Source of the DNA: a virus
IMG/VR virus record: IMGVR_UViG_3300025280_000107
Span: 1-31,579 of that record
Length of the DNA stretch: 31,579 nt
Direction: 5' to 3' (one strand)
Part shown: positions 8,913 to 31,579 of the stretch, one piece after another
Position numbering within the stretch: position 1 is the first letter of the stretch
Layout of the letters: every line of letters starts with the position of its first letter
The notes under the pieces: model-generated
What the model was told of the DNA's origin: nothing
Databases searched by the model: none
What the model saw: only the letters and a program-made list of their open reading frames with translations
Made by a program: the position numbers and the translations under genes

Positions 8913-9830
8913 ATGGCTATTTCAAGAGCACAAATGCTGAAGGAGCTACTGCCCGGTCTCAATGCTTTGTTCGGCTTGACTTACGAAACCTACGAGAACG
9001 AGAGCGAGCAGATTTACGAGACAGAGACTTCTGACCGTTCGTTTGAAGAGGAGGTTAAGCTGACGGGCTTCGGACAGGCTCCTGTTAAAGCGGAAGGTGA
9101 AGCGATCAATTACGACACGGCAAGTGAGAGCTTCTCTGTTCGCTATAACAACGAGACCATCGCAATGGGCTTTGCGATTACCGAGGAAGCGATGGAAGAC
9201 AACCTGTATGACTCGCTGTCTGCGCGTTATACAAAAGCACTTGCGAGAGCGATGGCTTACACCAAGCAGGTGAAGGCCGCTGTTCCGCTCAACCAAGGTC
9301 TTCCGACTACCGACAACTTCGATTCGGGTGACGGCGTTTCGCTGTTTAATACGGCTCACCCAACCGTTGCCGGTGGCACCAATGCCAACACTCCCACCAC
9401 CCAGACCGATCTCAATGAGACCAGTCTTGAAGCGGCTGTTATTTCTATCGCCGCGTTCGTGGATGAGAAGGGTTTGTTGATTGCTGCCAAACCTCGGAAG
9501 CTTATTGTTCCGCCAAACAACATGTTCGTGGCTACCCGGATCCTCGATTCGGAAGGCCGCACGGGAACGGCGGACAATGACATCAACGCCATCAACCACA
9601 ACGGTACGATCCCCGAGGGGTATGCTGTGAACCACTATCTCACGGATACCGACTCGTGGTACATCGTCACCGATGTGCCCAATGGCATGAAACACTTTAC
9701 TCGTGTTCCGCTCCAGACATCGATGGACGGCGACTTCGATACGGGTAACGTGCGTTACAAGGCACGCGAACGCTATGTGTTCGGTGTCTCAGATCCCCTC
9801 GGAATGTTCGGTTGCGAGGGAGCATCCTAA
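8913..9830 (+). CDS. major capsid protein
   Basis: The 305-residue protein starts at ATG 8913 with GGAGG just upstream. It lies after the scaffold in the normal head-gene order and is closed by a strong terminator, as expected for the most expressed gene. Its pattern resembles the Mu gpT-like/HK97-fold capsid group: F-E-E-E-V-K-L-T-G-F-G near residue 45, L-F-N-T-A-H-P near 145, K-L-I-V-P-P-N-N-M-F-V-A near 200, and A-R-E-R-Y-V-F-G-V-S-D-P-L-G at the end. It would form the icosahedral shell. There is no sign of a fused protease or a frameshift extension. Confidence 0.88.
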   Translation: MAISRAQMLKELLPGLNALFGLTYETYENESEQIYETETSDRSFEEEVKLTGFGQAPVKAEGEAINYDTASESFSVRYNNETIAMGFAITEEAMEDNLYDSLSARYTKALARAMAYTKQVKAAVPLNQGLPTTDNFDSGDGVSLFNTAHPTVAGGTNANTPTTQTDLNETSLEAAVISIAAFVDEKGLLIAAKPRKLIVPPNNMFVATRILDSEGRTGTADNDINAINHNGTIPEGYAVNHYLTDTDSWYIVTDVPNGMKHFTRVPLQTSMDGDFDTGNVRYKARERYVFGVSDPLGMFGCEGAS

Positions 9831-15849: not shown

Positions 15850-17088
15850 ATGGCAAGTTCATACACGACCAACTTAGGCATTGAGGAAATGGGGAGTGGC
15901 GACCAAGCTGGCACTTGGGGAACCACCTCCAATTACAACTGGGACATCATAGATCGGATCGCTGCGTATTCTCCAGTGACGGTGTCCAGCACATCCCACA
16001 CTCTTACTGTGCGCGAGGCTTCGCCGGGCAGCGGTACATCCAATGTTCAAGCTGGGATGTTTCGTGTTCTCAAGTTCGCGGATTCGGGGGATATTGGAGG
16101 AAATTGCACTGTCACCATCGAACCCAATACGACGACGGCGTGGTTTATTATGGAGAACGCCCTCTCTGCCAGCCGCACCATAGACGTATCTCAGGGGGCT
16201 GGAGCCAACGTCACTATCCAGAATGGCAAGAATGTAGCCGTATACTGCGACGGTGCAGGTGCTGGGGCTGCGGTTTTGGATGCCTTGGCCGATCTTCAGA
16301 TAGCCACTCTTGAATGCACCGGAGCGGCTGCCATTGACGGGGCAGCTACCCTAGGGAGTACGCTGGCTGTTACCAGTGGGGCAACTCTTAGCTCGACGCT
16401 GGGCGTCACGGCAGCGACGACATTGAGTTCTACCCTTGCCGTTACCAGTGGCATCACGGGAAGCGCCGGGGCTGTTTTGAGTAAAGAGGATTCTGGCACC
16501 ACTACCGTCCTCAATCCCCTCACCTTGACACGCACCAGTAGTGGATCGCCCGCTGCCGGTATCGGTGTGGGCATGGATTTCATCACCGAGACTGGTGCTG
16601 GTAATAACGAGACGGGGGGCGTCATTCAGTCGCTGACGACCGACGTAACGTCTACGGCAGAAGACTTCGACATGGTCTTTAAAACCATGAAAGGGGGAGC
16701 CACTGCCGCCGAAGTCATGCGCATCGTATCCAGTGGTAAGGTGGCCTTTGCCAATAGCGCTTATGCAAGTGTGTTTGTTGATGCCACCACTACAGGCGCT
16801 ACGACACTCGACTTCGATACCTACCAGAACTTCTATTTGACGGCCACCGGCAACGTGACGCTGTCTAACCCAACGACGGAAAGCATCGGGCAATCGGGGG
16901 TGATCATCTTCGAGCAGGATGGATCGGGATCGAGAACGCTTTCTATTGGTACTCAGTTTTATGCTCCCGGTGCCAGTCTTACGATCTCAACAGCGGCATC
17001 GGCAATCGATGTCATCCCCTACTTCTGCTGGGCTGCTGACAAGATAGCTCTCGGCACTCCACAGTTAGCGTTAGCGAATGTGACCTAA
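15850..17088 (+). CDS. tail fiber-like protein
   Basis: The protein has 412 residues and GAGGT upstream of ATG 15850. The N terminus Y-T-T-N-L-G-I-E-E-M-G-S-G-D-Q-A-G-T-W-G-T-T-x-N-x-N-W-D is a known phage tail-fiber N-terminal pattern, likely the virion attachment end. Residues 161-201 carry a repeat of S-T-L-A-V-T-S-G and S-S-T-L-G-V-T-A type, as in beta-helical or fibrous shafts. The C-terminal part has D-F-D-T-Y-Q-N-F-Y-L-T-A-T-G-N-V-T-L and S-I-G-T-Q-F-Y, typical of fiber tips. A receptor-contacting or structural fiber role is likely. Confidence 0.75.
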   Translation: MASSYTTNLGIEEMGSGDQAGTWGTTSNYNWDIIDRIAAYSPVTVSSTSHTLTVREASPGSGTSNVQAGMFRVLKFADSGDIGGNCTVTIEPNTTTAWFIMENALSASRTIDVSQGAGANVTIQNGKNVAVYCDGAGAGAAVLDALADLQIATLECTGAAAIDGAATLGSTLAVTSGATLSSTLGVTAATTLSSTLAVTSGITGSAGAVLSKEDSGTTTVLNPLTLTRTSSGSPAAGIGVGMDFITETGAGNNETGGVIQSLTTDVTSTAEDFDMVFKTMKGGATAAEVMRIVSSGKVAFANSAYASVFVDATTTGATTLDFDTYQNFYLTATGNVTLSNPTTESIGQSGVIIFEQDGSGSRTLSIGTQFYAPGASLTISTAASAIDVIPYFCWAADKIALGTPQLALANVT

Positions 17089-17089
17089 A

Positions 17090-20000
17090 ATGTCTGGACC
17101 TTTTGGATCAAGCAGCTTCTTTAGCGGCACTACTGTTGCTGCTGCCTATACGATTGATAACTCAGTATGGTATGACGGTACTAACGACGTTATGACTTAT
17201 ACGCCGGGGAGTTCAGCAGATAATTTAAAGGTGTTTACTTTTTCAACGTGGATGAAGTTGGGATCGGACTTCACCAATGAAGGTAATTTTTATATTGCCG
17301 GAACTTCAGGGAATGATTTTGAACGTCTTTCTTTTAGAGCCGTGAGTTCTGCTTTACGGTTTGCGTGGGATGTAACTGTTGGGAGTGTAGAAAAAGGTAA
17401 AATATATTGTACCGCAATTCAACGAGATCCAACTGCTTGGTCACATTACATGGTGACGAAAGATGCGGCTAATACCAGAGTAAGGTTTTATATAAATGGA
17501 ATTGTGCAGACAGCCACAACAGTTGATGTAGCTGTTGCCGATGTTAATGGTTACATTAATTCTAGTGCCGTGCTTCAAGGAGTACCGGGAAATACAACAC
17601 TAACAGATGCTTTTTTTGATGGGTACATGGCTGAGACAGTAATGCTTGATGGCGTGGAAGCGTCTCCTAGTGATTTTGGGGAATTTAATTCGGATGGAGT
17701 TTGGATACCAGTTAATCCTACAGATTTAACATTTGGTACAAATGGTTTCTGGTTGGATTTTGAAGACAGTTCCGATTTAGGTAACGACGTATCTGGTAAT
17801 GATAACGACTTTACAACAACTAGTATGTCTGCATCAAACCAAACCCTCGACAGTCCCACCGATAGCGGCACGACGATTGGGAATTATAGTACAGGGTCTT
17901 CTATTTACACCGCTCCTGGTGGTTATGCTTCTGAAGTGACTTGGAGTGAGGGGAATACTAAAGTAGTAATAGCTATAGCCAGTGGCGATGTTTTTATACC
18001 GCTTACTACAACACCTATACTTACTGGGAAATGGCACATAGAATTTGTTATGACAACTCTTGGTGGTAGTGGTCATCATAGACTTGGACTAACACCCACT
18101 CTCAGTACCTTCAATCCAAGTGCTAGTGGCTACTGGAACTGGTTCATGAAGCCTTCTTCAGGTGATGGAATGACGCAGTTGGGAGGTGTAGAGCAAAGTG
18201 GCAGTTTGACGGTAGTAACTGCTGGACAGCGGGTGGCGGTGGATATAGATCTTGATAACGGAACTATTGCAGGATCTTTCGATGGTTCAAATATATTCAC
18301 TGATTCTGGCATGACATTAGCCACCGGGCCGTACACTCTCTATTTTACTAATAATGGCACTACAATATCGAATATTAACGCCGGACAATTTGGGTTTGAC
18401 GATACTCCAGCTACAGACCATCTTCCTATATGCACGGCTAACCTTGCAGCCCCAACCATAACCAAACCCACAGATCAGTTCCTCCCCATACTCTATGAAG
18501 GCAACGGCGCTGGTCAGCGTGTAGGTAACTTCATACCCTTCACCGATACGTTTGCTGTTGGTGCTTCTTGTAGGTTTGATAGTGGTGACAGTGATTTTTT
18601 AAGCCGGACCTTTGATGCTAGTGATAGAAAAACGTGGACGTTCTCAACTTGGGTAAAACGAGGGAAAGTTGATGTTAACGGACACATATTTGGGACACAA
18701 CCAGCTTCTGGTGCAACCACAGCTAATTCTGGTGTTCTTATATTTGGAAGTGCTAATACACTTCAATTTAATGCTGGAGGTACTACTTATCTCGCCACAG
18801 ACCGATTATTTTTAGATACAAGTTCATGGCACAATATCGTGCTGACATGGGATACTACCGATGCCACAGCAGGTGACAGAGTTCGGATATATTATGATGG
18901 GGTGGAACTTACCAATTTTTCAACGGATACGAATCCAGCATTAAATTTTGAGGGTGGCGTACAAACCAATGTTGAACACGGAATAGGTCAACGAGAACCA
19001 GCGGGGGATATACCCTATGATGGATATTTAGCTGAAACTGTTTTTATTGATGGAACGGCTTACGCTGCTTCCAGCTTTGGTGAGACTGATACTTCAACAG
19101 GTCGTTGGATACCAAAGGATGTTTCAGGTCTAACCTTTGGAACCAACGGCACTTACCTTGCCTATGCTTCTGAAAATAATTTAGGTGATGATACCTCCGG
19201 TGAAGGTAATGATTGGGCCGAAACTAATCTGGACAGCACCAACGGCAGCAACCAGATGTACGACACGCCGTCACAGAACTTTAATGTAATGGATGGTGGT
19301 TGGGATAGTACCGGCATATCATGGATACAACCTCTAGCAGCGGGATTAACGCAGGGAAACTTAACATATACGCAATCATCGGGTAATCCTTCTGGCCCTG
19401 CTTTTATGGGTGCTTCTACCGGAAAATGGTATGTTGAAATTGGAATAGATACGATGGTGGTTGGCGCTAATACAATGGCATTTGGAATTATTGATCTTAA
19501 CAATCTAATTGCGGATAATAGTATTTATGGCGAAAATGCATTTGGATACAGAAATTATGATAGTGCTGGTGGTACTACATCAGGGTCTACAGGGCAAAAA
19601 AATGTGAGGGGTGACTTTACAACTTTCGGAACGGGTTATGTATCTGGAGATGTGTTTCAAATCGCAATGGATTTAGATGCGGGACATATGTGGTTTGCAA
19701 AAAATGATACGTGGATGGGTAGCGGTGATCCTAGTGCTGGCACAAACCCTGCCATAACGGGAATATTCGGAGGTCCGAATATATCGAAATGGGCTATAGA
19801 GTTGCTTTTTAATGCTAGTCATACCTGTACTTTTAATTTCGGTCAGTGGCGTTATTTCGATGGGGCGACAACGACACTAGATGCTACTGCCGGTGGGTAT
19901 TTCAGATATACACCACCAACAGATTTTTTAGCTTTCCAACAGGACAACCTACCAGCCAACACCGCTGGCATCACCGGCTTCTCTTGGATCAAGAACCGGG

Positions 20001-20905
20001 ATGCTACTGATAATCATATCCTTCAGACGAGGGTAACTGGAATTTATAATTATGTAGAAAGTAATACTACTGACGGTCAAGATACCGATACTAATTCTGT
20101 ACAACGATTCCTTCAGCAGGGTGTACAGATAGGAAACATGGATGCAGTTAATACGTCTGCCGAAAGTTATGTTCTGTGGCAATGGGCGAATGATGGTGCG
20201 GAAACCAGTAACGGGGATGGTGCCATTACGACTACGATCAGGGCAAATACCGCTGCCGGATTTTCGATGGGTACTTATACAGGTGATAATGCCGCTGTCT
20301 CTTCTACGATAGGTCACGGACTTGGGGTTACCCCTGAATTGGTTATAGTGAAACCTCTTGAGAGGTCTAGTTCGTGGACTCTTTGGCATACTTCATTATC
20401 CGCTAATAAGATCCTGCAAATAGATCATAATGGTGCCGAAGTAACTCCAAATGCTGGGTATATAAGTGCAGTATCTTCAACAACGATAACTCTTGCAAAA
20501 AATTTAAATAATAATGCTGTTAATTTAGTTGAAGAATATGTCTTCTATGCGTGGTTTCCCGTTGAAGGATATTCCTCTTTCGGAAGCTATGTCGGTAATG
20601 GTGATGCGGACGGTCCGTTTGTCTGTACGGGGTTTCGTCCTAGTTATTTGTTTCAGAAAAAGTTTAGTGCTGTTGGTAGTTATACCTTAGTAGATAATAA
20701 GAGAGATCCATTTAACCCACTTGATGATTTTTTAGTTGTTGATGATACTGATGGAACAAATACAGGTGCAACGCAGGATTTCTTAGCAAATGGATTCAAA
20801 CTCCGCAGTACATTCCAAAATACAGACACTGCTGATTATATCTACATTGCCTTTGCGGAAAATCCGTTTGGAGGTTCAGGAGTTGCACAGGCAAGAGCGA
20901 GGTAG
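17090..20905 (+). CDS. large tail fiber with two LamG-SPRY units and DUF7483-like end
   Basis: The protein has 1271 residues. A LamG/ConA-like module lies at about 26-230 (FTFSTWMK ... DGYMAETVMLDG ... LTFGTNGFWL), and a SPRY-like module at about 312-440 (GKWHIEFV). A second LamG follows at about 493-710 (WTFSTWVK ... DGYLAETVFIDG ... LTFGTNGTYL), then a second SPRY at about 777-930 (GKWYVEIG). Residues about 960-1271 carry W-I-K-N-R-D, I-G-H-G-L-G-V-T-P-E-L-V-I-V-K and F-V-C-T-G-F-R-P-S-Y-L-F-Q-K-K, matching DUF7483-type C termini. Such fibers are expected to bind surface sugars. Base composition is mosaic: AT-rich domains, GC-richer linkers. The gene starts 1 nt after the previous stop. Confidence 0.82.
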   Translation: MSGPFGSSSFFSGTTVAAAYTIDNSVWYDGTNDVMTYTPGSSADNLKVFTFSTWMKLGSDFTNEGNFYIAGTSGNDFERLSFRAVSSALRFAWDVTVGSVEKGKIYCTAIQRDPTAWSHYMVTKDAANTRVRFYINGIVQTATTVDVAVADVNGYINSSAVLQGVPGNTTLTDAFFDGYMAETVMLDGVEASPSDFGEFNSDGVWIPVNPTDLTFGTNGFWLDFEDSSDLGNDVSGNDNDFTTTSMSASNQTLDSPTDSGTTIGNYSTGSSIYTAPGGYASEVTWSEGNTKVVIAIASGDVFIPLTTTPILTGKWHIEFVMTTLGGSGHHRLGLTPTLSTFNPSASGYWNWFMKPSSGDGMTQLGGVEQSGSLTVVTAGQRVAVDIDLDNGTIAGSFDGSNIFTDSGMTLATGPYTLYFTNNGTTISNINAGQFGFDDTPATDHLPICTANLAAPTITKPTDQFLPILYEGNGAGQRVGNFIPFTDTFAVGASCRFDSGDSDFLSRTFDASDRKTWTFSTWVKRGKVDVNGHIFGTQPASGATTANSGVLIFGSANTLQFNAGGTTYLATDRLFLDTSSWHNIVLTWDTTDATAGDRVRIYYDGVELTNFSTDTNPALNFEGGVQTNVEHGIGQREPAGDIPYDGYLAETVFIDGTAYAASSFGETDTSTGRWIPKDVSGLTFGTNGTYLAYASENNLGDDTSGEGNDWAETNLDSTNGSNQMYDTPSQNFNVMDGGWDSTGISWIQPLAAGLTQGNLTYTQSSGNPSGPAFMGASTGKWYVEIGIDTMVVGANTMAFGIIDLNNLIADNSIYGENAFGYRNYDSAGGTTSGSTGQKNVRGDFTTFGTGYVSGDVFQIAMDLDAGHMWFAKNDTWMGSGDPSAGTNPAITGIFGGPNISKWAIELLFNASHTCTFNFGQWRYFDGATTTLDATAGGYFRYTPPTDFLAFQQDNLPANTAGITGFSWIKNRDATDNHILQTRVTGIYNYVESNTTDGQDTDTNSVQRFLQQGVQIGNMDAVNTSAESYVLWQWANDGAETSNGDGAITTTIRANTAAGFSMGTYTGDNAAVSSTIGHGLGVTPELVIVKPLERSSSWTLWHTSLSANKILQIDHNGAEVTPNAGYISAVSSTTITLAKNLNNNAVNLVEEYVFYAWFPVEGYSSFGSYVGNGDADGPFVCTGFRPSYLFQKKFSAVGSYTLVDNKRDPFNPLDDFLVVDDTDGTNTGATQDFLANGFKLRSTFQNTDTADYIYIAFAENPFGGSGVAQARAR

Positions 20906-20907
20906 AG

Positions 20908-21219
20908 ATGGAGCTTACAACCTCTAATCTCATATCCCTCGCAGCGATGGTGGCGGCGATAATAGGATCGGCGGCGATTGCCAAATACAAGATCAACGGT
21001 CTGCTGGAAAGAGTGGAGGTGTTGTTCAAGAGCAAAACAGAGTTGGATAATCGTCTCGACTCAATCGAACAGTCCAATGGATTGTTTAAGCACAGGCTGG
21101 ATATAGTGAGCAGCATCCTCAGTCCCGAGAAGTTGGAGAAGGATACCAGAGAACTAGCCACGCTCAGGAGCGAGATAGAGCATCTGAAAAAGGTAGTTGT
21201 AAAGGCAAACAAGACGTAG
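20908..21219 (+). CDS. TM/coiled-coil protein, possible lysis or spanin-like
   Basis: The protein has 103 residues, with GAGG just upstream of ATG 20908. Residues 8-25 form one hydrophobic span (ISLAAMVAAIIGSAAIA), followed by charged residues and a heptad-like helix to the end (LLERVEVLF, LDNRLDSIEQ, LRSEIEHLKKVV). A single N-terminal TM with a long coiled coil is the layout of Rz-type inner-membrane spanins, but no partner lipoprotein is visible. It could instead be a holin accessory or an unrelated virion membrane protein. Confidence 0.65.
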   Translation: MELTTSNLISLAAMVAAIIGSAAIAKYKINGLLERVEVLFKSKTELDNRLDSIEQSNGLFKHRLDIVSSILSPEKLEKDTRELATLRSEIEHLKKVVVKANKT

Positions 21220-21230
21220 CGAGGTGAGTT

Positions 21231-21752
21231 ATGTGGTGTGTGCGTAAGGGTAATCAGGTCATCAAAATCATCAATGGCGCTCAAGCCATCACCATTGATG
21301 AGATACAGCACCCGGCGGCGATCTTCCGTGCATGGGACAAACACCAGCTTGCCAACATCGGCGTCTTCCCGTTGGAGATCCAGCATCAAGACAGCGAGTT
21401 CTACACTTACAGGGGAGAGCGCTACGACATCCAATCCGAGAAGGTGGTGCGTGTGTGGGACAACGTCACGCCTAAGCCGATGGATGAGTTGAGGAAAAAA
21501 CACACGGAGCGTACAGCGCAGAGTGCTCTGAGCTTATTGAAGTCTACTGACTGGTACGTCATTAGGCAGACAGAGACAGAGGAAGCGATCCCCGATGACG
21601 TGGCGACATATCGTGCTGCGGTGAGGGCGGTGGAGAAGAAGATCACCAAGGCCATTGCCGCAAAGAAGACAGTCACTGGGCTGAAGAATATGTTTGTCGC
21701 GCCTGATGACGGCAACGCTCCCATGCACGACTGGCCCGATCCACTGGACTGA
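21231..21752 (+). CDS. tail assembly-like phage protein
   Basis: The protein has 173 residues; GAGGTG lies 4 nt upstream of ATG 21231. The C-terminal half has A-L-S-L-L-K-S-T-D-W-Y-V-I-R-Q-T-E, I-P-D-D-V-A-T-Y-R-A-A-V-R, a pattern shared with phage tail-fiber assembly and tail-associated proteins, where S-T-D-W-Y precedes a helical R-A-x-V-R. The N-terminal half is beta-rich and not recognised. Adjacent fibers and hub fit a chaperone or assembly role for the fiber, but this is inferred from context and weak pattern. Confidence 0.6.
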   Translation: MWCVRKGNQVIKIINGAQAITIDEIQHPAAIFRAWDKHQLANIGVFPLEIQHQDSEFYTYRGERYDIQSEKVVRVWDNVTPKPMDELRKKHTERTAQSALSLLKSTDWYVIRQTETEEAIPDDVATYRAAVRAVEKKITKAIAAKKTVTGLKNMFVAPDDGNAPMHDWPDPLD

Positions 21753-24358: not shown

Positions 24359-26473
24359 ATGCCAGAAGATATCGGCGGCGCTGGAACAGATTGGGACGGC
24401 ATTGATGTTGGTGGCGGGGGTGGGTTTGCTCCTGCTGATATTGGTGCTGATTATGGTGGGCCGGAAGGCTGGGGCGTCGACTATGGTGGCGGCGGTGGTG
24501 GTGGTACAGGGGGACTCTCTTCAGAAGGGGTAGGGGATATTATTGAGGCAGCTACTGCTGCTAGGCTTCAAGGTGCGGGTCGTCCTTTCTCTCTACCTAT
24601 TGCTCAAGCGGAACTTGAGGAGGAGAGTTGGCTCGGAGGGCTTGGGAATTTTTTTGGATTCGGTCCATATAGGGCGGAGAATGATCCTCAGTTTGGTTTT
24701 AAAGAGCGTCGTGGTGTAGGCGATCCATATGCGGAGACGGCTGTCGCACAATTGGGATTGCAAACGCCACCGCAAGACTTTGGGGGTCGAGATGATGAAC
24801 CTCTCCCACCTCAACTACGGCGTCCTCCACCTCTGCCTGCCTTGGAAGAGGCGGCTACCTACCGTGATCCTTATGGGCCACAGGTTTTTAACCCGCAGCC
24901 GTATGAGGGTTATGATTTTACTACAGCGGGCTTTAGGGGGTTGCCTAGTGATTTATTTTATCGGCCCCAAGTGGCACAAGGAGGCGGTTTGATGGGGCTA
25001 CGCAACCAAGCCAAACAGGTGGCGCGCCAAGGACGTGGCGGCGACACCATGCTCATGCATATGCGCCCCGATGAAGTGGCGGGACTTGCTTCTCTGGGGG
25101 GAGTCACTAGGAACCCTGATACTGGATTGCCTGAGAATTTCTTGGGGCCGTTGTTAGGGGGTATGTTGGGTGCATCCTTGGGGCCTGCTGGGTGGTTAGG
25201 AGGGGCTTTAGCAACGGGGGCTGGTGCAGGGCTTGGACAAGCTGCACAGAGTTATATGCTGGGAGAAGAAGATCCTCTCAAAAAGGGGCTACTAGCAGGA
25301 TTAGGGACGGCAGTAACTGCTGGTCTTTTCAGAGGAGGTGCGGAATTTTTAGGTGGCGCACCAACGGGATATGAGCCAATTAAAGCTGGTAGCCTTCAAG
25401 CAGGTCAAGTTGTGGGTGAGGGGGGTCTTGGAGCCAGTCAGCAATTTCTTCCAATAGAAGAAATGGTTGCTCAGGGAACAGATCCCTTGACTGGGTCATA
25501 TAATCTCGCTGACTATCAAAGGACTTTTGGTGCTCCCCAGTTTGCTGGGGGTTCGGGGCTATCTGGCATTCAAAGTGGCGCTCAAAAAATGACTGCGTCT
25601 ATGTTGGATAATCCGTTTACCGCTGCTGGGGCGTTTAGTGGACTGGGTGGGATGGCTGCCGAACAGGCTATGCTACCTAAGTATACTGGCCCTCTGCCTA
25701 CGTCAGGTACAGGTGGAACCTATCGCGATCCCAGACTTGTGCCCGACACCCGTCGGCCCACACAATTAGCTCAGACTGCTGACTTGACCCAGTATGGCTA
25801 CGGTCCCGAGGGACGCTTCTTCTATCCTAATATCATGGACCCCCATCGTTTGGGTTACACGCAATACGCTCAAGCTGGCGGCCTTCAGTCTCTCCCCATT
25901 GATGACGAGGTTGAAGAGACCGAAACAGTTGAAGAGGTCGAGGGCAGCATAACCGATCTCCCGGTAGAAGCGCCTACGGAGCTTGCTGAAGGCGGCATTG
26001 GTTCCCTTCCCATAGCGGGAGGCGCTGAGGCTTTGATTGAAGATGTCACTCAACAGGCTATCGCGGCCATAAAAGGTGACCATCCAGAGCCTGAAATAGC
26101 TATCACCCGCTTTGCCGAGGTCTTTGGTCCCGGTGCTTTCGAGGGACTGCGCCGTATAATTATACAGGAAGAGCGCGCAAGGGGGTTGGGTCGTGCGCAC
26201 GAGGGCCTTGTTCGTGGTGCAGACGGTGGCCGTGACGACTTGCGGCGAGGTAACATCGACGGCAGGGAGGCGATTAATGTGAGCAGCGGTGAACACATCT
26301 GGTCTGCCGATGATGTGGCATTGGCCGGTGACGGCAATACCGAGGCAGGAGCTAGGCGGTTGGATGCGGCGCGCAATAAGCTAAGGATGATGGCACATGG
26401 AACTATCAAGCGCCCCAACTACATAGGCGAGGAAGGGGTTGAGGAAGTCTTTGAAGAAGTAGGGGTTGCGTGA
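24359..26473 (+). CDS. Gly-rich internal virion protein
   Basis: The protein has 704 residues, with AGGAAA upstream of ATG 24359. The N-terminal 60 residues are very Gly-rich and probably disordered. Around 226-260 it has R-G-G-D-T-M-L-M-H-M-R-P-D-E-V-A-G-L and T-R-N-P-D-T-G-L-P-E, a conserved stretch in such phage proteins. A hydrophobic Gly/Ala segment follows (LLGGMLGASLGPAGWLGG, about 264-281) that may insert in membranes. The motifs AGGLQSLP and EGGIGSLP are near 506 and 544. The C terminus has I-N-V-S-S-G-E-H-I-W-S-A-D-D-V-A-L-A-G-D-G-N, the 'S-x-G-E-x-x-x-x-A-D' ending of many phage ejection proteins. It is predicted to be carried in the virion and ejected with DNA. Confidence 0.75.
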   Translation: MPEDIGGAGTDWDGIDVGGGGGFAPADIGADYGGPEGWGVDYGGGGGGGTGGLSSEGVGDIIEAATAARLQGAGRPFSLPIAQAELEEESWLGGLGNFFGFGPYRAENDPQFGFKERRGVGDPYAETAVAQLGLQTPPQDFGGRDDEPLPPQLRRPPPLPALEEAATYRDPYGPQVFNPQPYEGYDFTTAGFRGLPSDLFYRPQVAQGGGLMGLRNQAKQVARQGRGGDTMLMHMRPDEVAGLASLGGVTRNPDTGLPENFLGPLLGGMLGASLGPAGWLGGALATGAGAGLGQAAQSYMLGEEDPLKKGLLAGLGTAVTAGLFRGGAEFLGGAPTGYEPIKAGSLQAGQVVGEGGLGASQQFLPIEEMVAQGTDPLTGSYNLADYQRTFGAPQFAGGSGLSGIQSGAQKMTASMLDNPFTAAGAFSGLGGMAAEQAMLPKYTGPLPTSGTGGTYRDPRLVPDTRRPTQLAQTADLTQYGYGPEGRFFYPNIMDPHRLGYTQYAQAGGLQSLPIDDEVEETETVEEVEGSITDLPVEAPTELAEGGIGSLPIAGGAEALIEDVTQQAIAAIKGDHPEPEIAITRFAEVFGPGAFEGLRRIIIQEERARGLGRAHEGLVRGADGGRDDLRRGNIDGREAINVSSGEHIWSADDVALAGDGNTEAGARRLDAARNKLRMMAHGTIKRPNYIGEEGVEEVFEEVGVA

Positions 26474-26883
26474 AGGTTTCCATTGTCCCCTACGATAGGG
26501 TGGCGGAGTGTTGGGATGAAGTCGCTCCGTTGCTCAAGCCTGCTGTGGAGCAGTCCTTAGGAAGGTTCACTCTTGAGGATGTGTACCATTTGGTAGTCAC
26601 ACAAGAGAGCCACCTGTGGGTGGTGTTGGATGAGGACGAGATTATCGCAACATGTACCACCACATTCACGCAGTACCCGCGCAAGAGAATGCTGACGGGC
26701 CAGTTTCTGGGTGGCACCCGTTTAATGGAATGGATGGGGGATCTTGATGAGATGCTGCAAAGGTGGGGTATGGATCATGGTTGCGCAGGCATTGAACTGA
26801 CGGGACGCAGGGGATGGGTTCGCGCATTGAGAGACATCGGATGGAACGCGACGTTCTTTATTACGGAGAAAGGCTATGAGTAA
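26470..26883 (+). CDS. GNAT-like (acetyltransferase-fold) virion-module protein
   Basis: The protein has 137 residues; GTG 26470 overlaps the previous stop (GTGA). It follows the GNAT plan: an N-terminal helix, L-W-V-V-L-D-E-D-E-I-I-A-T-C near 50-63 as the central beta strands, then a helix L-M-E-W-M-G-D-L-D-E-M-L-Q-R-W-G near 85-100, and G-C-A-G-I-E-L-T-G-R-R-G-W-V-R-A-L near 104-120. T7 gp13-like virion proteins and related phage genes use this fold near ejection proteins. The usual acetyl-CoA loop is not obvious, so catalysis is uncertain. A structural role in the ejection module is as likely. Confidence 0.65.
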   Translation: MKVSIVPYDRVAECWDEVAPLLKPAVEQSLGRFTLEDVYHLVVTQESHLWVVLDEDEIIATCTTTFTQYPRKRMLTGQFLGGTRLMEWMGDLDEMLQRWGMDHGCAGIELTGRRGWVRALRDIGWNATFFITEKGYE

Positions 26884-27958
26884 AGGTGGAGGTGGCGGGG
26901 GTGTCAACCCTACGCCCACTAAGAGCACGGTTACACAGACTAGTCTTCCCGAATACGCACAGCCTTACTACGAGCGTCTTTTAACGCGAGGCGAAACGGT
27001 TACCGATCAGCCCTATTTGGGTTACCCGGGACCACGCATTGCCCCATTTGCACCGGAGCAGAGCCTAGGATTTGGGTTGCAGACACAGGCAGGCGCAACC
27101 GCTCCTCAGGGAATGTACGCTGCGCAGGACTATTACTCCAATATTCTTAACCGTCCGTATGCTCCCCCACCCCCTGCTGGTGAGGTGGGGGCGCCTCCTC
27201 AGGCTCCTGTAGGGGGTGCTGAGGGGCCTTCTCCTGCTGCCGGGTTCGGACCACGCCCATTTCAAGCACAGGGCTACAGCGGGCTTATAGGGGAATACAG
27301 GCCATCTTATGATTATAAGGACTATTTTGATCCCTATTTGGAGGATGTTCTTGGTGGGCAGCGGAGGAGTGCTGAAACGCAGTTTGGGTTACAGGCCCAG
27401 CAAAGGGAAGCTGCCCGTGTGGGGCGTGGAACGCGCACGGGAAGCCGTGCTGCCGTGGAAGAATCATTGGCACGCGGTCAATTCGAGGAGCGTATGGGCG
27501 ATCTTGAAAGCCGTCAACGCTCGGAGGGATTTCGTTTAGCTCAACAGCAGGCAATGGATCAGTTCCAGCGGGATCGTGCTGCTCGCGTACAGGCTGCTCA
27601 ACTTGGGGGAGCAGAGAGGTTGCAGGAGGCGCAGTATGGATTACAGGCTGCGGCTGCCGCCGCTGGAATGGACCCTCAAATATTACAGCAACAGCTTTCT
27701 CAAGCTGGGGCGTTGCAGGGAGTGGGGGCTGCTTATCAGAAAATGGATCAGGCCAACCTTGATTTGGCCTATCAGGACTTCCTTAATCAGCGGGACTTTG
27801 AGCGTAGGCAGCTTCAGTTCTTGGCTGGCCTATTACAGGGAGTGCCCGTTACACCTCAGTCCGAGGTTTACCAATACCAAGCACCGGGATCATTTACGGG
27901 TCAGTTGGCTGGTGCTGGCCTTGGTGCTCTTGGTGCTTACAAAACCCTTACTGGATAG
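26876..27958 (+). CDS. Gln/Ala-rich internal virion protein
   Basis: The protein has 360 residues. ATG 26876 overlaps the previous gene by 8 nt, with GGAGAAAGG upstream. It begins M-S-K-G-G-G-G-G-G and then L-P-E-Y-A-Q-P-Y-Y-E-R-L-L-T-R-G and Y-P-G-P-R-I-A-P-F-A-P-E-Q, a start seen in many phage ejection-region proteins. The middle is Pro/Gly-rich (PPPPAGEVGAPPQAPVGG). The C-terminal half is a long Gln, Arg and Ala-rich helix (FRLAQQQAMDQFQRDRAARV). The end is a short hydrophobic GQLAGAGLGALGAY. It is likely an internal core or DNA-ejection protein. Confidence 0.75.
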   Translation: MSKGGGGGGVNPTPTKSTVTQTSLPEYAQPYYERLLTRGETVTDQPYLGYPGPRIAPFAPEQSLGFGLQTQAGATAPQGMYAAQDYYSNILNRPYAPPPPAGEVGAPPQAPVGGAEGPSPAAGFGPRPFQAQGYSGLIGEYRPSYDYKDYFDPYLEDVLGGQRRSAETQFGLQAQQREAARVGRGTRTGSRAAVEESLARGQFEERMGDLESRQRSEGFRLAQQQAMDQFQRDRAARVQAAQLGGAERLQEAQYGLQAAAAAAGMDPQILQQQLSQAGALQGVGAAYQKMDQANLDLAYQDFLNQRDFERRQLQFLAGLLQGVPVTPQSEVYQYQAPGSFTGQLAGAGLGALGAYKTLTG

Positions 27959-27962
27959 CGCT

Positions 27963-30437
27963 ATGACCAATATCTTACAGATAACAGAGATTCTGAAGGG
28001 TCTTTCTAAGGAAGTTTTGCTACAGCAAGTACAGAACCCCGGGGCTGTTGATACATATTTAATCATTAGTGAGTTGGATCGCCGTAAGCGTATGGAAGAC
28101 GCCTATAGGGCTGATGTAGAGGAAGCGGAGACTACGGTTGCTGATGATGTTATTAGTGGCGCATCACCACAGCAGCCCCGTCCTCTAATGGGGCCGCAGG
28201 CTATGATGCAGGGCCGTCCACCTCAGATGATGCAGGGCCGTCCTCCACCTCAAATGATGCAGGGGCCTCCTCCTCAGATGATGCAGGGACGTATGCCCCC
28301 GCAAGCCCAGCAGGGTATCAGGGCGCTACCCCAACGGCAGATGTCACCGGGTGTTCCTCCTCAGATGCAGGCTCTTGCCAGAGCAGTGCCTCCACCAATG
28401 GCCCGTCAGGCTGTTCCCCCCATGATGATGGAGCAAGGTGGTGTTGTGAGGATGGCTAAGGGAGGTAGGGTTAAGTCTATTGAGGAGGTGATTGAGAGCC
28501 TAACTGATGAAGATAAAGACAGAATTGCGAGGGTTGTTGATCAGGAAACTGGGGATGATGTAAAGGGCATATTTGCAGTAACGGCAGTAATTATAAATCG
28601 TCTCAGAGATGGCAAATGGGGGGATAGTGTTAAGGAAGTTCTTGAAGCAAAACAACAATTTGAGCCAGTGGGGAAGGCAGGACATGATGTAGACAAGCTT
28701 TTACCAGCAAGCGGCTGGACGAGATACTTCGTGTCGGGGGCGCTCTTTGATGGGCGGTCGTTCAATGCGGCGAATCCTGTTGGTGGCTCGCTCAATTTTG
28801 AGAACCCCACCTTAACTGCCAAACGAGGGACTATTAGCAAGAGTCTTAAAGATTTCTATGATTCTCAAGGCAACCTCACAACGCCCTTGACACCTGATAA
28901 GGTGGATATTGGCGGGAATGTTTTCTTTACTGCCGGGGATAAACCGCTAACAGAAGAAGAGGCTGCTATTTCTGCGGTGCCTACAGCACAGCCTCCAGTA
29001 CAGCTTGCTGAACAACCTATTGTGTCACCTGATGAAACGCTGATGGCCGTGGATTGGTTAAATCGAATTGAGGAAGCAGTTCCCTTATCTGGGACATGGC
29101 TTCCGCCGCAGTTCATGTCTGGAGCTACAACTGGAGCTACAGGTGGACTGCCACAGGTAGCAGCATCTGGCACAAGCATAGGTCAGGCGGGTGGCATAGG
29201 TGAAAAAGTGCTACAAGGCGCAATTGATTTAGGGGGCGCGGGTAGGCGGTTAGTGGGGCGGCTTGGGCTGCCGGTTCCTGAACGCTTCAAGGAAGAGACT
29301 GTGCTTTCTGGTTCGCCTGATGCTCCGCCATCAACAGTACAGCCTCTAGTCCCAGAGCTTGCAGGTATTCAGACTGGTCGTTTTTCTGAAGCAGCCCCGA
29401 TTAACGATGTGATATACAGAAAAAACATGGAGCAGCAACGTGCTGCGGATAAAGAAGCATTTAAGAGGATTTATGCTGAGAAAGTTGGGGGATTGCCCTT
29501 TGTCGGGGGTTATAAAATTGCTGATCCTATTCCTGATCCACCTAACTTGCAGTTAGCTCTGAGTCAGAGTGAGAGGCCGTTAGTAGCGGCATCTACTCCG
29601 CCGGGTTTTGCTCCTCCTGATATGGGTGAAGCTTATGCGAGGACCGTTGCTTTCGGGGGGCCGGGAAGTTGGAGGCAGGGTGCTCTCAGGAATATGGCTG
29701 CTGGGAAGCCGGGTGCACTTGATGACGCTACTGTTGATGATGCTGCGGGAATACCCTCTGCTGCGAGTGCTCTCTTGGCGGGCCAAAAAGAAAGAGACCA
29801 ACAGAATCTATGGGAATTTTTAGCGCGCGCTGGATTTGGGACGGCGGCGGCAGCGCAACTGCCCGGAGCAACTGCCCTTGGTTCATTGGGACGAGGTGGC
29901 TTGGAGGGCATGAAGGGATTAGCTGCCTCCAGAGCGGCGGGTGCTAAAGAGGACTTGGCACGGGCTACATTGGAATTACAGGCGGCGGCTCTTAAGAGAA
30001 AACCAGACGCCTATCAGAGATTTGAAGAAGATATATTAGCAAGCCACAAGGAAAGTCCTCATTGGAAAAGGTGGTTTGAGGATGTCGATGGTAAACCCGG
30101 TAACCCCCTCCCCGGGGCAAGAGAAGCAATAAGAAAGGCTTGGGGCGCTGGCAGTGCTCAATCTCCTTATGCTGCATCAAAGGCTTCCCTTCAAACTTAT
30201 CATCAGTGGGTACGGAGCCTCGCAGGAAAACGGGTTGAACGTAGGCTAAAGGATCTGTATGGAGATGATCCTGATAAGGTGAAGAAAGAGCTATTAAAGG
30301 AATATAAAAAGGAACTAGAACAAATCAGAGCGGCTACTGGTGTCGCTCCACAGACGGCAGCAGGTGTTCACACGACTATTCGTGATCCTAACAGTGGCGA
30401 CATTGTTGCCGCGCCACGACAAGTCTATCCATTCTAG
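27963..30437 (+). CDS. large ejection protein with SleB-type murein hydrolase domain
   Basis: The protein has 824 residues from ATG 27963; the frame is open farther upstream but overlaps the previous gene and has no better start. After a helical N-terminal part (LQITEILKGLSKEVLLQQ) comes a Pro/Met/Gln repeat (MMQGRPP, four copies) and M-M-M-E-Q-G-G-V-V-R-M-A-K-G-G. About residues 185-270 look like a Hydrolase_2/SleB domain: R-V-V-D-Q-E-T-G-D-D-V-K-G-I-F-A-V-T-A-V-I-I-N-R and K-Q-Q-F, with the catalytic-type Glu in Q-E-T. This suggests cutting of host peptidoglycan at DNA entry. The C-terminal 550 residues are partly helical and include L-P-G-A-T-A-L-G-S-L-G-R-G-G near 640. It is predicted to be virion-borne. 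Confidence 0.78.
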   Translation: MTNILQITEILKGLSKEVLLQQVQNPGAVDTYLIISELDRRKRMEDAYRADVEEAETTVADDVISGASPQQPRPLMGPQAMMQGRPPQMMQGRPPPQMMQGPPPQMMQGRMPPQAQQGIRALPQRQMSPGVPPQMQALARAVPPPMARQAVPPMMMEQGGVVRMAKGGRVKSIEEVIESLTDEDKDRIARVVDQETGDDVKGIFAVTAVIINRLRDGKWGDSVKEVLEAKQQFEPVGKAGHDVDKLLPASGWTRYFVSGALFDGRSFNAANPVGGSLNFENPTLTAKRGTISKSLKDFYDSQGNLTTPLTPDKVDIGGNVFFTAGDKPLTEEEAAISAVPTAQPPVQLAEQPIVSPDETLMAVDWLNRIEEAVPLSGTWLPPQFMSGATTGATGGLPQVAASGTSIGQAGGIGEKVLQGAIDLGGAGRRLVGRLGLPVPERFKEETVLSGSPDAPPSTVQPLVPELAGIQTGRFSEAAPINDVIYRKNMEQQRAADKEAFKRIYAEKVGGLPFVGGYKIADPIPDPPNLQLALSQSERPLVAASTPPGFAPPDMGEAYARTVAFGGPGSWRQGALRNMAAGKPGALDDATVDDAAGIPSAASALLAGQKERDQQNLWEFLARAGFGTAAAAQLPGATALGSLGRGGLEGMKGLAASRAAGAKEDLARATLELQAAALKRKPDAYQRFEEDILASHKESPHWKRWFEDVDGKPGNPLPGAREAIRKAWGAGSAQSPYAASKASLQTYHQWVRSLAGKRVERRLKDLYGDDPDKVKKELLKEYKKELEQIRAATGVAPQTAAGVHTTIRDPNSGDIVAAPRQVYPF
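28203..28288. repeat. tandem ATGATGCAGGG repeat coding MMQGRPP
   Basis: ATGATGCAGGG occurs at 28203, 28227, 28254 and 28278, spaced 24, 27 and 24 bp, all in frame. The spacing is a multiple of 3, and the units encode M-M-Q-G-(R/P)-P-P with small changes. Such repeats often grow or shrink by slippage. The segment lies between the N-terminal helix and the murein hydrolase domain of the ejection protein and is probably a flexible linker. Confidence 0.75.
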
Positions 30438-30454: not shown

Positions 30455-31579
30455 ATGGCACAGCTTTATGAATTTGAAGGGCAGCAGTTCTCGTTTCCTG
30501 ATGACGCTACGCAAGATGAAGCTCTAGCGTACATCAATCAACAATTCCCCTACGAAGCTCCCCCTCCTCAGCCTAGCGAATCGGGGTTTGGTGAACAATT
30601 CGCTGGCTCATTTTGGGGCACTCTTACCCAAGAGAACCCACGTTTGGCTGGGCGCGCCATCGAAGGGCTGGGTCGTTTCTTTGGCTCAGATACAGTCACT
30701 GACTGGGGTTCTGAGATCGTCAGTGACTTTGAAGCAGAGCCTGATAAAGAAGCTTTTGTTGCTCGCGTCCCCTCCCTCACTCAAATCAAAGACCTTGATA
30801 CTTTTCTGGATTACGTCGGTCAAGGATTAGGGCAAGGCGTTGCTTCCTTAGGTGTGCCATTGGCTGGTGCTGTTGCTGGTGGGATAGCAGGGGCACCCGG
30901 TGGCCCTATCGGCGTAGGGGTAGGGATGCGTGTTGGGGCTGGTACGGGATCTTTCCTCCAGAACTATGGCGATACTTATGATTATCTGGTTGAGCAGGAA
31001 AAGGTAGATCCTGACACGGCGGCTAGCATAGCTTTGGGTCCGGGTGTGGCGATGGCCGCTTTGGATATGGCCGGTCTCTCTGCCCTCACTGCTCCCTTCA
31101 GGAAAAAAACCAAAGAAAAAATCGCACACTCAGTTGCCAAGCGGATGCTCCAGTTCGGCAAGAAGGGCCTCACTGTAGAGGCGCTTACCGAAGGTGCGCA
31201 GCAGATCATTCAGGAGACGACGGGTGAATACACCGAGGCTACGGGCGCTTCCCCGGAAGACATCCAGTTGGCACAGCGGGTGGAGAATATTGCTAATGCC
31301 ATTGCTATTGGTGGCCTTACTGGTGGGTTTGTTGGTAGCGTGGGTGGCCCCTTTGCTCGCCCCACACCGGATCCAGTACCCCCACCCGACCCCACTGAAG
31401 GACTCCCCGAAGAATTTGAAACGGTAGCAGAAGAGGGGCCGCCGCTCGCGCCGCCCGCGATCCTTGAAGAAACGGCTGAAGCGATACCTCTTGAGCCTAT
31501 TCCACAGCCTCCTATTCTGGATGAGACTGCGGCAGCTATCCCGACTACCCGCCTCCCCGAACCCCCCATCATAGAAGAA
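30455..31579 (+). CDS. large ejection/polyvalent-type phage protein, cut by window end
   Basis: ATG 30455 starts a frame open to the window end, 375 codons, so the C terminus is missing. The N terminus M-A-Q-L-Y-E-F-E-G-Q-Q-F-S-F-P-D-D-A-T-Q-D-E-A-L is a pattern at the start of large phage internal proteins. Residues about 125-160 are Gly/Ala zipper-like (GQGLGQGVASLGVPLAGAV, GGIAGAPGGPIGVGVG), able to insert in membranes. The next part, D-P-D-T-A-A-S-I-A-L-G-P-G and L-T-E-G-A-Q-Q-I-I-Q-E-T-T-G-E-Y, recalls large polyvalent or T7 gp16-like DNA-ejection proteins. The end in view is Pro/Glu-rich linker. Catalytic domains, if any, lie beyond the window. Confidence 0.72.
   Translation, partial: MAQLYEFEGQQFSFPDDATQDEALAYINQQFPYEAPPPQPSESGFGEQFAGSFWGTLTQENPRLAGRAIEGLGRFFGSDTVTDWGSEIVSDFEAEPDKEAFVARVPSLTQIKDLDTFLDYVGQGLGQGVASLGVPLAGAVAGGIAGAPGGPIGVGVGMRVGAGTGSFLQNYGDTYDYLVEQEKVDPDTAASIALGPGVAMAALDMAGLSALTAPFRKKTKEKIAHSVAKRMLQFGKKGLTVEALTEGAQQIIQETTGEYTEATGASPEDIQLAQRVENIANAIAIGGLTGGFVGSVGGPFARPTPDPVPPPDPTEGLPEEFETVAEEGPPLAPPAILEETAEAIPLEPIPQPPILDETAAAIPTTRLPEPPIIEE

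Follow-up and report, generated by a model that had tools for sequence, protein, structure and literature searches.

Modules of a putative host-binding fibre appear to be exchanged at conserved connectors among uncultured marine phages

In the distal tail fibre of T-even phages (gp37/gp38), recombination at short conserved motifs swaps the specificity of the adhesin. The locus described here resembles that system in its apparent exchange at short conserved motifs within an adhesin, a change of specificity being the outcome in T-even phages, but fold and gene differ and up to five internal slots are exchangeable here, on both sides. More generally, phage proteins, and receptor-binding ones in particular, are domain mosaics whose fragments are shuffled between phages, in some cases recently (PMC10684548, Nat Commun 2023). 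That survey uses protein profiles and, as it states itself, homologous domains that are swapped horizontally escape its domain-based measure. Our case shares with it the shuffling of fragments between phages in host-recognition proteins, but concerns swaps of homologous domains, with borders placed to the nucleotide in near-isogenic contigs. In the host-recognition module of Alteromonas phages, a tail fibre locus is likewise common to distantly related marine phages, although it comprises the whole fibre and a chaperone (PMC10579305), whereas single domains within the fibre are concerned here as well. Fibre loci of Pectobacterium tailocins are also exchanged by homologous recombination, there across a genus, but at the level of the locus and on bacterial chromosomes (PMC13195805). 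Finally, relaxed recombination by Rad52-like annealing proteins leaves mosaics with traces of homology at their borders (PMC3945230), similar to those seen here; that system was shown in coliphages, whereas our link to a Sak protein is drawn from gene content. While adhesin domain exchange is already known, both this fibre family and the GC3 signature it carries appear to be new.

The window, i.e., the whole stretch of DNA analysed, comprises 31,579 nt from an uncultured marine phage (IMGVR_UViG_3300025280_000107) and is contained in a 61-kb record (IMGVR_UViG_3300025305_000017). Relatives of its portal protein infect Pelagibacter, Roseobacter, Caulobacter and Planktothrix, among others. Three observations suggest that the fibre gene probably encodes a host-binding adhesin, namely the predicted folds, the tail fibre annotation of a PHROG that matches DUF7483, and the proximity of a fibre-assembly-like gene (Table 1). 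The Pfam scan of the fibre returned DUF7483 (PF24299) at residues 964-1259 (E 3.6e-78, 263 bits against a cut-off of 27), a weak SPRY match at residues 828-877, and no LamG match. In an AlphaFold model of residues 1-490 (pLDDT 77), LamG1 matched laminin/neurexin LG domains by Foldseek (E 3e-10) and SPRY1 matched the SPRY domain of ASH2L (E 2e-8 to 6e-8, target TM up to 0.81); the two are predicted to adopt a laminin-G jelly-roll and a SPRY/B30.2 fold, respectively. The LamG and SPRY names used in the preliminary description are borne out by these matches for the first pair, while SPRY2 owes its name to its position and the weak Pfam match only. DUF7483 was modelled as all-beta (pLDDT 84), and a PDB match was not found for it. 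The two LamG-SPRY halves are 32% identical across 298 aligned positions and stem, on the strength of this alignment, from an ancient tandem duplication. In the isolate collection, many relatives match over a shorter stretch, the length of which suggests one LamG-SPRY pair followed by DUF7483.

Table 1. Features of the fibre locus (positions in the window).
Feature	Coordinates	Strand	Remarks
Upstream gene (g15850), 3' part	16486..17088	+	left edge of transferred locus; ~77-86% nt identity with L163, 60% for the gene's 5' part
Putative fibre/adhesin ORF, 1271 aa, LamG1-SPRY1-LamG2-SPRY2-DUF7483	17090..20905	+	GC3 0.318 throughout
N-terminal segment, conserved	17090..17170	+	common to L089/L185 up to ~17164
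Slot 1, LamG1	17171..17674	+	replaced in L089, L185 and L163 (43-46% nt identity where measured)
Connector 1, LamG1 to SPRY1	17675..17887	+	79-89% nt identity among variants
Slot 2, SPRY1	17888..18446	+	39% nt identity in variants
Connector A, SPRY1 to LamG2	18447..18555	+	contains GC-rich line 18481-18540
Slot 3, LamG2	18556..19075	+	stretch replaced in L002 is 18554-19238
Connector 2, LamG2 to SPRY2	19076..19324	+	~78-83% nt identity
Slot 4, SPRY2	19325..19894	+	named by position and weak Pfam SPRY match (E 0.72)
Connector 3 and DUF7483 start	19895..20209	+	83% with L163, 71% with L167
Slot 5, DUF7483 core	20210..20839	+	all-beta model; 51% nt identity in L163
C-terminal tail, conserved	20840..20905	+	81% with L163
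Small gene after fibre	20908..21219	+	right edge of transferred locus; L163 87% nt/89% aa, next gene 54% nt
Tail-fibre-assembly-like gene	21231..21752	+	phrog_4912, E 1.2e-9

Towards the right end of the window, a 24/51-nt tandem repeat (MQGRPP-type) lies at 28203-28315 within ORF 27576-30437, and the last ORF (30455-31579) is open-ended. It appears to start a giant protein extending past the window, presumably of ~4,070 aa once two pieces are joined (L265/L178), with an LPD38 (large-polyvalent-protein domain) in the scanned part. The 61-kb record (L265, L178) additionally encodes a DUF2201/VWA-type metallopeptidase-like protein, an AAA ATPase and a primase-helicase.

We interpret the fibre as a multi-slot adhesin whose modules, and sometimes the whole locus (~16486-21328), are exchanged between phages by homologous recombination within the connectors, a reading to which we give a probability of about 0.82. 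Replacement of modules is observed between near-identical phages. Contig L002 equals the window from 19401 to at least 31384 (nearly 12 kb at 100%) and shows 7 mismatches over 12,341 nt downstream of 19239, whereas 299 of 685 nt are mismatched at 18554-19238, LamG2 being the sole module that differs; its connector A carries 3 mismatches in 169 nt. Similarly, the backbone of L089 is 98.4% identical to that of the window (114 mismatches in 7,053 nt), but its LamG1 and SPRY1 are unrelated modules (43% and 39% nt identity) set between connectors that are 84-96% identical, and the same two slots are replaced in L185. The nearest relative found for LamG2 of the window belongs to another phage, L106 (46% aa identity), and not to L002 (38.5%). 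Once modules and connectors are compared separately, the connectors match same-lineage phages and the modules do not (L002, L089). The preliminary description had named such a contrast as support for its proposal of whole-domain transfer between phages at conserved linkers, which is better supported by these swaps and connector matches than by the GC cue on which it relied. The comparisons point to a domain mosaic formed by homologous recombination, with whole-domain replacement between near-identical genomes, L002 and L089 being one metagenome contig each. A donor search with LamG1 and SPRY1 of the window yielded contigs of the identical phage and one match at 28% aa identity, and no near-identical copy; for SPRY1, no relative was found beyond the identical-phage contigs. 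Isolate-phage DNA searched with the fibre and with connector A gave no match.

Parts of the locus are also shared with a distant phage, L163. Nucleotide identity to the window is 48-63% in its MCP, g12744, g13800, g14732, 5' part of g15850, g21231 and g21769 (63% for the capsid gene), yet it rises to 81-89% in the connectors, 94% in SPRY2 and 87% in the small gene that follows the fibre, which indicates that the locus moved between distant phages. LamG1, SPRY1, LamG2 and the DUF7483 core differ from those of the window. A backbone identity of 76-80%, also considered for this phage, is true of the fibre-nearest stretch only. SPRY2 is 44% identical in L167. This phage, L170 and L171 (genome GC 37-39%) have a connector A that is 61-79% identical to the window at the nucleotide level, and their other genes are mostly 25-39% identical at the amino-acid level (55% for the L171 MCP).

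Exact matches of at least 23 nt between the window and the variant fibres lie in connectors, with the exceptions of the SPRY2 shared with L163 and of runs of 22-27 nt at the N-terminus. The ends of these runs coincide between phages that carry different modules (17886-17887, 18447 and 18553-18555). The final 32-41 nt of connector 1, ending at 17886-17887, are identical in L089, L185 and L163; the region of connector A (18422-18553) is 86-98% identical in L002, L089 and L163, with exact runs of 25-87 nt, and connector 2 contains exact runs of 51 nt (from 19225) and 132 nt (from 19268). Red-beta is reported to need 23-27 nt as a minimum for pairing, and divergence is tolerated by Rad52-like phage recombinases (PMC3945230). 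Connector runs of 25-132 nt exceed this minimum and are long enough to recombine, and the pattern suggests that connectors are the crossover points for domain swapping. The 61-kb record encodes an annealing recombinase of its own, a Sak/Rad52-like protein (PF06378, 5.6e-45), along with a PD-(D/E)XK exonuclease and a RusA-like resolvase; Sak was not found in six other records, most of which are fragments. Phages meeting in one cell would trade modules, and sometimes the entire locus, by homologous recombination inside the connectors. Judging from gene content, this could be the work of the phage's own Sak-like, exonuclease and RusA-like proteins, or of host enzymes.

A similar pattern might arise without exchange if diversifying selection drove rapid divergence of the module surfaces and purifying selection held the connectors. 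Amino-acid conservation is indeed higher in connectors than in modules (0.56 vs 0.37), and an ordered structure is predicted for connector 1. However, gradual change can produce neither 299 differences in 685 nt of one module beside 7 in 12,341 nt of flank (L002) nor a SPRY2 at 94% beside other genes at 48-63% (L163), and the remaining slots show opposite behaviour in these two pairs. The figures strongly contradict such divergence, which we regard as very improbable. Swaps seen in single contigs could also be assembly chimeras joined at common connector sequence, since several contigs end inside connectors (18385, 18537, 18582 and 19238), places prone to assembler mis-joins, and the 100% identity of L002 over nearly 12 kb would suit this explanation. 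Nevertheless, the mosaic of the window is present in three other contigs and that of L163 was seen again in contigs from three metagenomes, which makes chimeras unlikely for these two. In addition, private differences of L002 flank its module on either side (18472, 18520, 18523, 19267 and 19400), and the L089 connectors differ from those of the window by 11-16%; altogether, we consider chimerism improbable. Sharp borders and changes limited to host-recognition modules would equally be expected of a dedicated variation device, either a diversity-generating retroelement or a site-specific invertase. This is contradicted by the family searches, as neither the 61-kb record nor the six others have a match to reverse transcriptase, serine recombinase or tyrosine integrase families; the lack of PF00078 (reverse transcriptase) in the 61-kb record argues against a retroelement and that of PF00239 (serine recombinase/invertase) against inversion of the fibre gene. 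Moreover, entire modules change rather than adenine sites in one variable repeat, and we attach almost no likelihood to such a device.

Base composition had provided the initial cue. Recounting the five hand GC counts reproduced them all exactly (36.7% at 17221-17280, 26.7% at 20461-20520, 53.3% at 18481-18540, 50.0% at 19921-19980 and 53.3% at 9301-9360 in the major capsid gene). Their assignment to domains was partly correct: the AT-rich line at 17221-17280 is within LamG1, but that at 20461-20520 is within DUF7483, neither LamG nor SPRY, and the GC-rich lines do fall in connectors, though in the SPRY1-LamG2 and SPRY2-DUF7483 ones rather than between LamG and SPRY. The fibre ORF is AT-shifted along its whole length (GC 42.9%, GC3 31.8%) compared with the other window genes (GC 48-59%, GC3 42-70%) and its two neighbours (GC3 58% and 64%), so that the biggest composition step is at the gene ends and not inside. 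Elsewhere in the window, three long genes at 24359-30437 have lower GC3 (0.42-0.48) and high GC1 (0.64-0.70), unlike most earlier structural genes. The claimed unevenness of total GC inside the fibre gene did not withstand a codon shuffle, which gave the same variance (p 0.43-0.59); the 60-bp contrast is by itself not beyond chance, and total GC was ruled out as a signal. The codon-level profile, on the contrary, is not smooth, GC3 being uneven at windows of 20-66 codons (p 0.000-0.026; p 0.076 at 100 codons) and higher in connectors (0.41) than in modules (0.29; circular-shift p 0.010).

This GC3 contrast is observed across related fibre ORFs from the loci compared. In 51 of 56 fibres, connectors surpass modules in amino-acid-corrected GC3, and they do so in 23 of 25 weakly related fibres (p 2.6e-6), the set left after removing those in which over 50% of the connector third positions are identical; the p-values overstate independence because the fibres are homologous. 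With connector labels shifted into modules as a placebo, the difference is about zero. The excess follows location and not residue conservation, a cause that we rejected because conserved module residues lack the excess, as do most conserved sites in seven other window genes; it is present at variable connector residues. In GC-rich phages, GC3 amounts to 0.545 in the backbone, 0.482 in connectors and 0.345 in modules, the latter being below the backbone in 10/10. These values fit AT-rich modules coming from outside, which may derive from a pool dominated by AT-rich phages, and the earlier picture of AT-rich modules with genome-like linkers applies to this group only. In AT-rich phages (backbone 0.169, connectors 0.198, modules 0.159), connectors are slightly GC-richer than the genome (p 0.01). 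This counts against our reading insofar as transfer alone does not predict it: the elevation is not purely a transfer scar and needs another cause, e.g., GC-biased conversion or connector exchange with GC-richer phages. In three fibres of the same type (L142, L148 and L118), the connectors are very rich in GC (GC3 0.60-0.83) and the modules have a GC3 of 0.45-0.58; the backbone around the L142 fibre is at 0.26, which inverts the relation seen in the window.

The GC3 pattern might even be no transfer signal, and result instead from local codon selection (translation speed at domain boundaries, mRNA structure) or from GC-biased conversion at often-recombining connectors. Connectors exceed modules in 25 of 32 AT-rich-backbone fibres, and exceed the backbone there too, and the excess at variable connector residues, absent from conserved module ones, points the same way. 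For GC-rich phages, nevertheless, rare-codon selection predicts a difference of opposite sign, yet connectors are higher there as well, and the position of all ten sets of modules below the backbone is expected of foreign DNA; we view this explanation as possible but doubtful. A more speculative and rather unlikely extension is that connectors are recombination hot spots in which repeated strand exchange raises their own GC3 through GC-biased conversion, marking the crossover points of adhesins across many lineages. It would account for the mark in AT-rich genomes, which transfer from an AT-rich pool cannot explain.

To summarise, module exchange at connectors that are kept alike could shift receptor specificity without breaking the protein, the modules themselves possibly binding host surface sugars. 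With this locus, the exchange of adhesin domains among uncultured marine phages can be followed at the nucleotide level, and near-isogenic variants make the process directly testable. Besides, amino-acid-corrected connector GC3 may serve to locate module borders in a single genome. Such exchange would also help explain why the same fibre architecture is found in phages of very different GC content.
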